36,123 bases of DNA from Deltaproteobacteria bacterium (lineage in GTDB: Bacteria; Myxococcota_A; Polyangia; HGW-17). Made by a program: the position numbers and the translations under genes. Below are positions 252-23,655 of the stretch, piece by piece. The notes below the pieces were generated by a model, which made no database searches, was not told the origin of the DNA, and saw only the letters and a list, made by a program, of their open reading frames with translations. The DNA lies in contig JAQICJ010000296.1 of the NCBI GenBank assembly GCA_027858615.1, positions 1 to 36,123 on the forward strand. The letters are read 5' to 3'. How positions within the stretch are numbered: the stretch's first letter is position 1; each line of letters opens with the position of its first letter.

Positions 252-454
252 TTAGTTAGTTCCCATCCCAGAATGGGGGTTTTTGACTGAATAAGAAATT
301 TGACTCAGATGCAAGGAGTAACTTCGCAGACATAGTTGATACTATTTCAAGAAGTTATGACAAAGCAGATGAGATAAATTTCCGTGTTCAGACGATGACC
401 TTCCTTTTTGGGATGGGAACTAGTTAGTTCCCATCCTGGTTCGGGAACTAGTTA
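252..454 (+). repeat. Dispersed MITE-like/REP-like repeat, copy A (full length, plus extra terminal palindrome 422-454)
   Basis: AGTTCCCATCCCA at 258-270 and inverted TGGGATGGGAACT at 409-421; body matches copies at 8688-8851 and 23531-23655. Confidence 0.85.
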
Positions 455-927
455 TTGTAGGAGCTTTGGATTTTAATGTATTTAATCTGTTCAGGGGCAA
501 CTTCTTCCCAATTTGATTCTTTCAATTTGGCATCGATGGATTGTTTGCTTTTCAAATAAGAATATTCCAGTTCAAACATGGCCTTTTTTTTGGAAAGTCG
601 CTGCATCAGCCTGGTTTGGGCTGAGAGTTGATAACTTATTATTTTTTTTCTTGAATTTACATGGACAGAAACAAGGGCGATGAGAACACAAATTCCAATA
701 AAAACAAAAATTGAAACCAGGATCATCGGTTTGGAAAAGGTAAATTTGAAAATATTCCTTTCGCTATCATTGTTTTCCTGTTTTTCAAAAGGATCGTCTC
801 CATAAGGCCTGGTAATTTTATCATCTTTGTTATTGGATGAAATCTCCGGAGTTCCCGGTAAATTCTGATCTGAGGAAGAAGTAGCCAAATCTTTAAACTC
901 CTCGGTGCCGAACAGCTTATTGTTCAT
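448..927 (-). CDS. ftsL: FtsL-like division protein (small bitopic membrane protein)
   Basis: Directly follows rsmH with an 11-nt overlap when started at MNNKLFG (AAGGAGG upstream); one TM (FSKPMILVSIFVFIGICVLIALVSV) and a short extracytoplasmic helical region. Assignment mainly by synteny and topology. Confidence 0.55.
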   Translation of the reverse strand: MNNKLFGTEEFKDLATSSSDQNLPGTPEISSNNKDDKITRPYGDDPFEKQENNDSERNIFKFTFSKPMILVSIFVFIGICVLIALVSVHVNSRKKIISYQLSAQTRLMQRLSKKKAMFELEYSYLKSKQSIDAKLKESNWEEVAPEQIKYIKIQSSYNN

Positions 928-1972
928 TTGCTTTTTCCTCCTTTCGTTGCAAATATCTGAGTTTTGCACTGCGGGATCTGGGATTTTCTTTGATTTCAGA
1001 CTGTTCAGGTTTGATTGGCCCTTTAGTTAAATAGAGACTTTGAGGTAGTTGAGATTTGGTAAGGGGAATACCGGAGGGAATGTCATTTTCCGGATGAGCC
1101 AGTTGGGTGAAACAGTTTTTAACCAGCCTGTCTTCAAGGGAATGAAAGGTGATAGCAGCAAAAATCCCACCTGGTGCAAGAAATTCGGGTACTGTTTCCA
1201 GCAATTTTTCAATTTCAATTAATTCTTCATTTACCCAAATTCTCAGAGCTTGAAAAGTTTTTGTTGCTGCATTCAGACCAGGTTGTTTCTGTTTTTTTAC
1301 CCGTCTGACAATTTGTGCCAACTCATTGGTTGTTTTTATTTTGCCCGTTTGAAAATCATGCAGAAGGGCTTTGGCAATGCGAGCCGCTTCTTTTTCTTCG
1401 CCATATTTTTTCAGAATGAATTTCAATTCCTGATAATCAACAGATTTAAATTTATCGGCCAGAGTAAGTTTTTGTTTTTGATCCATGCGCATATCCAGAG
1501 GACCATCTTTGGAAAAACTGAATCCTCGGTGTGCTGTATCAAGTTGGTGGGAAGATACTCCGAAATCAGCGAGAACAAAATAGACTTCACCCAGGGACAA
1601 TTGGTTCATGATTTGTCGAAATTTTGAAAAAGGAGAATGAATAAAATGACTGGGGCAGGGCCAGTTACGGTTTTTATTCCAGGCGATGGCATCAAGATCA
1701 CGATCTATGCCGATGATTAACGATGGCTTGTTTGCGTTTTCAACTAACAGTTCAAGGTGACCACCTCCGCCGAGGGTACAATCTACAATAGTTCCCCCTG
1801 GGGGGATTTTGTCGGCAATTTTCATGATTTGTGAGGTGAGAACCGGATTATGTTTGAATTTCAAAATTTCCTCCGACCCAAGATTACCCTCAAAATTCAA
1901 TGGGGGCAAATTTTTGCGAAAATTCCCATTTAAGCAAATTTCTAATTGAGAAAGCATTTTTCGGAGATACAA
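917..1972 (-). CDS. rsmH: 16S rRNA (cytosine(1402)-N(4))-methyltransferase
   Basis: HNPVLT...GGTIVDCTLGGGGHLELL, GIDRDLDAI, FGVSSHQLDTAHRGFSF..DGPLDMRM, ITFHSLEDRLVK: RsmH/MraW motifs. Confidence 0.96.
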   Translation of the reverse strand: MYLRKMLSQLEICLNGNFRKNLPPLNFEGNLGSEEILKFKHNPVLTSQIMKIADKIPPGGTIVDCTLGGGGHLELLVENANKPSLIIGIDRDLDAIAWNKNRNWPCPSHFIHSPFSKFRQIMNQLSLGEVYFVLADFGVSSHQLDTAHRGFSFSKDGPLDMRMDQKQKLTLADKFKSVDYQELKFILKKYGEEKEAARIAKALLHDFQTGKIKTTNELAQIVRRVKKQKQPGLNAATKTFQALRIWVNEELIEIEKLLETVPEFLAPGGIFAAITFHSLEDRLVKNCFTQLAHPENDIPSGIPLTKSQLPQSLYLTKGPIKPEQSEIKENPRSRSAKLRYLQRKEEKANEQ

Positions 1973-8687: not shown

Positions 8688-8851
8688 GGTTCTCATCCCA
8701 AAAAGGGAGGTCACCGTTTGCGGACGGAAGTTGGAATGATCTGTTTTGTCGCAACTTCTTGAAATTGTACCTAATATGTCTGCGAAGTTACTTCGCGCAT
8801 CTCAATCCAACTTTTTCCTCAGCCAAAAACCTCCATTCTGAAATGAGAACT
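8688..8851 (-). repeat. Dispersed repeat, copy B1 (full length, inverted)
   Basis: Reverse complement gttctcatttcagaatggaggtttttggctgaggaaaaagttggattgagatgcgcgaagtaacttcgcagacat...caagaagttgcgacaaaacagat...ggtgacctccctttttgggatgagaac aligns end to end with copy A. Confidence 0.85.
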
Positions 8852-8925
8852 GTCTGAGAAGTTACTGGGTACATCTGAGGCAAACTTTTTCCTCAGCCAA
8901 AAACCTCCATTCTGGGATGGAAACT
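8851..8925 (-). repeat. Dispersed repeat, copy B2 (left portion only, tandem to B1)
   Basis: Reverse complement agtttccatcccagaatggaggtttttggctgaggaaaaagtttgcctcagatgtacccagtaacttctcagac. Confidence 0.8.
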
Positions 8926-8950
8926 AAATAAGATTGTACGAAAAGGAAGT

Positions 8951-14867: not shown

Positions 14868-14923
14868 TAGTTAAGTAGTTCCCAGCCAAAAACACCACTT
14901 CTGGGATGGAAACTAAGTAGTTC
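14868..14923 (-). repeat. Dispersed repeat, copy D (short internally deleted derivative)
   Basis: Reverse complement gtttccatcccagaagtggtgtttttggctgggaac: left end joined directly to a terminal GGGAAC motif; shares agtggtgtttttggctgg with copy C. Confidence 0.7.
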
Positions 14924-15081: not shown

Positions 15082-15771
15082 ATGAATTCAATTAATTTAA
15101 AACAGGTTTTTGCAAATATTGCAAAAAAATATGAGCAGGTAAACCATTTCATTACCTTTGGACAAGATAAAAGATGGAGAAAAACAGCTGCTTTGATGGC
15201 GGCAAAAGGGGGTGGGGATAAATGGGTTGATGTTTGTACGGGCACCGGAGAAATGGCGGTTTTGCTTGATAAAATATCTCCAGGATCAACACAGGTTTAT
15301 GGAATAGATTTCACCAAAGCCATGCTTGTTCAGGCCAGGAAAAAAAACAGTTCCGTAAAATTTATCAAAGGCAGTGCCGAGGATCTGCCTTTTGCCCAAA
15401 GTGAAATTGATTTGATCACAGTTTCCTTTGCTGTGAGAAATCTCAATCTGGAACCGGAAAAATTCAAGCAAACCTTATCAGAGTTTTATCGAGTTCTCAA
15501 AAAAAATGGTAGACTTGTATTGTTGGAAACCTCAATTCCTGACAATATGCTGATCAGGAAAATGTTCTTTTTTCTGGCTCCGAAAGTAGCCAAGGTAACC
15601 GGGCATTTATTAACTGGGGAAAAAGAAGGATATGAATATCTGGGAAATTCCATTTCTGAGTTTTATCAAGGCAAGGATTTGAACAATATTTTGAGAAAAA
15701 CAGGTTTTTCCAGTGCAATTTGCAAACAACTGGCTCTGGGAAGTGTTGCCATCCATATTGGAACTAAGTAG
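15082..15771 (+). CDS. ubiE: UbiE/MenG family methyltransferase
   Basis: VFANIAKKYEQVNHFITFGQDKRWRKTAA, WVDVCTGTGEMAVLL, YGIDFTKAMLVQARKK, GSAEDLPFAQSEIDLITVSFAVRN. Confidence 0.93.
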   Translation: MNSINLKQVFANIAKKYEQVNHFITFGQDKRWRKTAALMAAKGGGDKWVDVCTGTGEMAVLLDKISPGSTQVYGIDFTKAMLVQARKKNSSVKFIKGSAEDLPFAQSEIDLITVSFAVRNLNLEPEKFKQTLSEFYRVLKKNGRLVLLETSIPDNMLIRKMFFFLAPKVAKVTGHLLTGEKEGYEYLGNSISEFYQGKDLNNILRKTGFSSAICKQLALGSVAIHIGTK

Positions 15772-15835
15772 TTCTAAGCAGTTCTGAATGTTTTCCTATG
15801 CAAAAAGGAAGGCTTTTGTCTGAACATGGAATTAT
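15763..15835 (-). repeat. Dispersed repeat, copy F (right-end fragment, inverted)
   Basis: ggaactaagtagttct...gcaaaaaggaaggcttttgtctgaacatggaa compared with the reverse complement of copy A: agttcccatcccaaaaaggaaggtcatcgtctgaacacggaa. Confidence 0.65.
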
Positions 15836-23090: not shown

Positions 23091-23540
23091 ATGAAATATA
23101 TTATCGGAATTGGAACCTATGCCGGTGGTGATGATTCCATAGGTTTGAAAATTATCGAATATATGGATAAAAATTATCCCCGGAGAGATTTTAAACTTAT
23201 TGACATGTCCGACAATGGCCTCAATATTTTTGCCTATCTCAACCAGGATACCAGCAGTATTCTTCTGGTTGATTGTGTAAAAATGGGCAAACAACCTGGA
23301 GAACACATGTTTTTTACCCTCGATCAGGTGGAAAGTAGCAAAGAATTGGCAAATATTTCCACTCATGAAGGTGATATGATTAAAATATTCAACCTGGCCA
23401 AACAACTTGACTACAAAATACCTCCGGTAAAATTTCTGGGAATTGAACCTTTAGAGATTAATACAACCATGGAATTATCCCCTTTGCTTGCTTCTAAAAT
23501 CCCCCAATATGTTAATTTGATCCTTGAGGAAACTAGTTAG
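23091..23540 (+). CDS. M52-type hydrogenase maturation protease
   Basis: MKYIIGIGTYAGGDDSIGLKIIEYM, LLVDCVKMG, ISTHEGDM: positions matching the acidic/acidic/His metal-binding pattern of HyaD/HybD-like proteases. SD AAAGG before ATG 23091. Confidence 0.8.
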   Translation: MKYIIGIGTYAGGDDSIGLKIIEYMDKNYPRRDFKLIDMSDNGLNIFAYLNQDTSSILLVDCVKMGKQPGEHMFFTLDQVESSKELANISTHEGDMIKIFNLAKQLDYKIPPVKFLGIEPLEINTTMELSPLLASKIPQYVNLILEETS

Positions 23541-23655
23541 TTCCCGTCCCAAAAGTGGTGTTTTTGGCTGGAGAAGAAGTTTGCCTCAGATGCGCGCAGT
23601 AACTTTGCAGACATAGTAGATACTATTTCAAGAAGTTACGACAAAGCAAATCCTG
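23531..23655 (+). repeat. Dispersed repeat, copy C (left two-thirds)
   Basis: aactagttagttcccgtcccaaaagtggtgtttttggctggagaagaagtttgcctcagatgcgcgcagtaactttgcagacatagtagatactatttcaagaagttacgacaaagcaaat aligns with copy A. Confidence 0.85.

Follow-up and report, generated by a model that had tools for sequence, protein, structure and literature searches.

A MITE family that duplicates TANNTA and is enriched at stop codons in a draft Deltaproteobacteria genome

The short repeat whose ends coincide with gene ends in the 36,123-nucleotide stretch of DNA analysed here (the window, which is one contig of a 3.67-Mb draft assembly in 312 contigs) is a MITE family, about 162 bp in length, that duplicates the sequence TANNTA. 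It is very probable that this MITE is non-autonomous, that the G at its terminus rebuilds a TAG stop codon from the end of the TANNTA target, and that its ends lie on stop codons mainly as a by-product of the target motif and of the survival of insertions.

The 3.67-Mb draft genome contains 624 matches to the pattern GTTCCC(A/G)TCCCA (20 with a reversed control), which forms the terminal inverted repeats at either end of the element, and these roughly 600 ends correspond to roughly 300 copies. Among the 110 copies whose ends could be paired, 80 have the modal length of 162 bp and 52 are flanked by identical 6-bp sequences, 49 of which have the form TANNTA. This target sequence is strictly palindromic, and C/T before it and A/G after it are mildly favoured (preferred motif (C/T)TANNTA(A/G)). 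The copies have the properties of MITEs: they are short (mostly 162 bp, against a usual limit of 200-600 bp), non-coding and without an internal transposase ORF, and they have a target-site duplication and a high, dispersed copy number. Forms of 36-41 bp have perfect 6-bp duplications at several independent sites; the mini-elements of 22-41 bp consist of scarcely more than two ends and are unusually small for mobile elements. Tandem arrays, in which neighbours have one TANNTA in common, are frequent (32 ends at the sampled loci), as though insertion were drawn to the place where two ends meet. Xer/dif-like recombination was considered, as the ends and the 6-bp core resemble a recombination site, and was rejected; the 6-mer differs between sites yet is identical on both sides of an element, so duplication is the better fit.

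The interior of the MITE is absent from the 28 related genomes compared. Matching ends are present in a few genomes of the same order, the named relatives with the same ends being Myxococcota and "Deltaproteobacteria" MAGs. The GC-rich relatives in this order carry a near-identical end, TAGTTCCCA(T/C)CCCAGA..., joined to different interiors (at L068, L069 (G010), L085 (G011) and L103 (G008)), from which it is probable that both the end and its transposase predate the MITE. No transposase with matching ends was found in the sampled regions among paired ends 0.4-6 kb apart, single-ended copies and two DDE_Tnp_1 loci. Just one DDE_Tnp_1 gene is intact (L212, which looks IS1380-like); it was rejected as an autonomous partner because it is without MITE ends, and the protein homologies beside the relatives' elements (G010, G011 and G008) include no transposase.

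Table 1. Elements, target duplications, scar and associated stop codons in the window
Feature	Position	Strand	Basis or remark
TAGTTA, left target duplication of first array	253..258	.	sequence; identical 6-mers at 421-426 and 449-454
Full-length 162-bp MITE copy, GTTCCCATCCCAGAA...TTTTTGGGATGGGAAC	259..420	+	modal length
TAGTTA separating MITE from 22-bp mini-element	421..426	.	sequence
22-bp mini-element GTTCCCATCCTGGTTCGGGAAC, two ends only	427..448	.	
TAGTTA, right target duplication	449..454	.	sequence
TAG stop of FtsL-position ORF (target TA + mini-element G)	448..450	-	
FtsL-position ORF, 173 aa, downstream of rsmH (TIGR00006)	448..969	-	no Pfam/NCBIfam match
Degenerate element array, ends GTTCTCATCCC...GGGATGGAAAC, then TAAATA	8688..8930	.	
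TAAGTA, left target duplication	14872..14877	.	
36-bp mini-element, perfect 6-bp target duplication	14878..14913	.	
TAAGTA, right target duplication, then GTTC	14914..14919	.	
Scar TAAGTA-GTTC-TAAGCA-GTTC, without element	15765..15784	+	
UbiE TAG stop	15769..15771	+	TIGR01934 match 223/223, to last residue
TAGTTA target at M52 protease stop	23534..23539	.	sequence
MITE copy, far end lost, ~112 bp left	23540..23651	+	
TAG stop of hydrogenase maturation protease M52 (HycI/HupD-type); target TA + element G	23538..23540	+	TIGR00072 matched to 144 of 145

The sequence-only reading of the window had noticed three ORFs that stop inside element ends (Table 1), and it located them correctly: the TAG of the FtsL-position ORF is the complement of 448-450, the M52 protease gene closes with gag-gaa-act-agt-TAG (23526-23540) and the UbiE gene with gga-act-aag-TAG (15760-15771). 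The FtsL-position and M52 protease genes do stop in an element end, but the UbiE gene stops in a scar that contains no element. The proposal that the ends supply the stops also holds, except that the element contributes no more than the final G; the preceding TA belongs to the host target (TANNTA, then G).

Genes were called on about 770 kb with a home-made codon model rather than a standard annotator, and the element copies were sampled from these stretches (about 265 non-tandem ends, not an exhaustive set). In this sample 109 termini face the 3' end of a gene. The stop is at T-ANN-TA plus the element's G (which we call frame C) in 28 of them, occupies the first three bases of the target in 13 (first-half stops) and, in 66, has the element farther downstream, and two genes read into the element; this last frame is almost absent (28 versus 2, p = 9e-7). 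When the copies were tabulated against stop codons, in the sampled ~770 kb and with our own gene calls, the enrichment of element ends at stops that the sequence-only reading implied was found: 16 of the 56 double-ended sites touch a stop, compared with 38 among the 464 free (unoccupied) TANNTA sites at which an insertion would leave genes intact (p = 4e-5), and frame C alone accounts for 11/56 double-ended sites versus 22/464 free sites (p = 3e-4).

Empty sites were rebuilt by scripted joining of both flanks. In 11 of the 12 frame-C readings (14 of 15 when looser flanks are admitted) the rebuilt site has its stop, TAA or TAG, at an unchanged codon position, and first-half stops are retained in 6/6 readings. 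At the FtsL-position ORF the TAA of the empty site has become TAG, and the ORF has 173 codons before and after. The M52 copy has lost its far end, so its own empty site is not reconstructible; the family-profile matches extend to the end of UbiE and to within two residues of the end of the M52 protease. Since the stop is kept at the same codon in the rebuilt sites and the profiles match in this way, the terminal TS* and TK*, which had been read as caps added by insertion, are native residues inside the target, the ANN codon lying within the duplicated sequence. The M52 protease orthologues of three relatives have C-termini that are 2-3 residues longer and are too divergent (44-61% identity) to fix the native stop, and the UbiE relatives are too distant for a comparison of C-termini.

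The UbiE site, which has only two TANNTA-like 6-mers each followed by GTTC (Table 1), belongs to a wider group. The pattern TANNTA-GTTC-TANNTA has 16 occurrences genome-wide (3 with the reversed control), at 14 loci besides UbiE; the 6-mers are identical at 12 of these 14, and the unit is sometimes present twice in succession. Such a scar looks like the duplication together with four bases from the very end of the element, a remnant that imprecise excision might leave. The scar loci lie exactly on stop codons in 10 of 14 cases, compared with 16/56 for elements (p = 0.005), a concentration for which the motif alone does not account, and collapsing the scar unit leaves the stop unchanged at all ten of these stop-sited loci. 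At one locus (L220; G000:C73:9474-9489) two convergent genes end in a single scar, TAACTAGTTCTAACTA, each with a TAG in the equivalent frame, and both genes end in TAA once the site is collapsed.

The free sites were also weighted by a motif learned only from non-stop insertions. The motif-weighted expectation is that 12-16% of tolerated insertions would be at frame-C stops, and 20% are observed there (p = 0.06-0.29); in a smaller sample the prediction was 22% and the observation 20%. Because the prediction is near the observed frame-C share, the stop association is mostly due to the target motif together with the removal of insertions that break genes; there may also be a small remainder. It is improbable that the machinery actively seeks gene ends or stops beyond the DNA motif, for example via transcription, translation termination or the structure of 3'-end DNA: the frame-C stops alone fit the weighted expectation, and the general preference for gene 3' ends that had been suggested is not seen, with 149 termini facing 5' sides against the 109 facing 3' ends. 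Pooling the two stop positions nevertheless leaves a residual excess (p = 0.008-0.07) that points in that direction, as do the ten scars on stops. A somewhat different idea, which we retain as a possibility of low probability, is that stop codons are a safe harbour and a preferred niche of the element: its palindromic target would match stops on either strand, and insertion and the GTTC scars of excision would both rebuild TAG and would both be harmless at the ends of genes.

The sequence-only reading had also raised tolerance through benign stop replacement. In the form considered here, an insertion near a gene end would make the protein shorter or longer, and its last few residues would be encoded by the element. 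The outcome is indeed benign, but replacement is largely refuted by the empty-site reconstruction, in which the native TAA or TAG stays at its codon in all but one of the twelve frame-C readings, and the profile matches of UbiE and the M52 protease argue against it as well. We consider it very improbable, even with one frame-C case on contig 80 in which reconstruction moves the end of the gene 42 nt downstream, the two ends that read into the element, and the precedent of a Coxiella MITE that extends enhC (PMC5896051), all of which count in its favour. It is similarly very doubtful that copies are retained as functional parts that, from a position just after stops, would for example terminate transcription or stabilise mRNA 3' ends. 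One end does have a short sequence resembling a hairpin, CCCAGAAGTGGG, with TTTTT after it, but there are as many copies near 5' ends, the orientation bias among the typed 3'-facing ends (L ~60, R ~42) is not significant, and the MITE has no match to an Rfam family.

The reading of the stop-codon ends as mainly a by-product of motif and survival can be put as a sequence of steps. The copies would be members of one non-autonomous DNA transposon family, usually of 162 bp but also of 36-41 bp and in one 22-bp form, moved by a putative transposase acting in trans, probably by DDE-type cut-and-paste. This enzyme would cut TANNTA, preferably as (C/T)TANNTA(A/G), with a 6-bp stagger, and such a cut would leave an identical TANNTA on either flank. 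Stop codons often fall within the target, in the arrangements T-ANN-TAA and T-ANN-TAG, and because G is the first base at both element ends, TAG is rebuilt there at the same codon in either orientation. Insertions within genes would be lost, selection presumably acting as the filter, and those between genes or on stops would persist; the overlap of the motif with stops, combined with this survival, would make the stop-codon ends mainly a by-product. With a motif that overlaps stops and an end base that restores them, an element of high copy number may spread through a gene-dense genome and leave the proteins unharmed, in a way that can be counted. Annotators should also be aware that, in this lineage, a TAG stop frequently includes transposon DNA.

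In the openly available papers we found no description of the family, of its TANNTA target or of the stop-regenerating geometry. Two related phenomena are already known, namely repeat-supplied stops (BOX) and dual targeting of a palindrome and of the element's own end (IS30). In Streptococcus pneumoniae, insertion of the BOX repeat supplies the stop in 36 CDSs without clear truncation (PMC3049150). BOX elements resemble the present family in being short, MITE-like repeats with inverted ends that supply the stops of many genes; they differ in their modular A/B/C boxes, in host and apparently in end sequence. No statement of a stop-containing palindromic target or of a regenerated stop was found in the BOX paper (PMC3049150), whereas stop regeneration is traced here to TANNTA and the terminal G, and this geometry may also explain the stop codons encoded by other repeats, such as BOX, without gene truncation. 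RUP elements (IS630 type) insert at TA-containing sites, and RUP and Correia elements are, like ours, non-autonomous, 100-160 bp long and bounded by inverted repeats with TA at the ends (PMC2229807). Their IS630/Tc1-type duplication is however the 2-bp TA and not a 6-bp TANNTA, and their ends, compared without a tool, differ from GTTCCC(A/G)TCCCA. IS30 has two kinds of target, palindromic hot spots and positions adjoining its own inverted repeat (PMC9333248). The reuse here of the TANNTA between two ends, which gives tandem arrays, is reminiscent of this, but IS30 makes a 2-bp duplication and has its own transposase, in contrast to the 6-bp duplication and the lack of any element-borne transposase seen here, and we do not claim membership. 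Cyanobacterial small dispersed repeats are only a few tens of bases long and apparently mobile; the 22-41-bp forms described above derive, by comparison, from a larger MITE by deletion and have the same 6-bp duplications.
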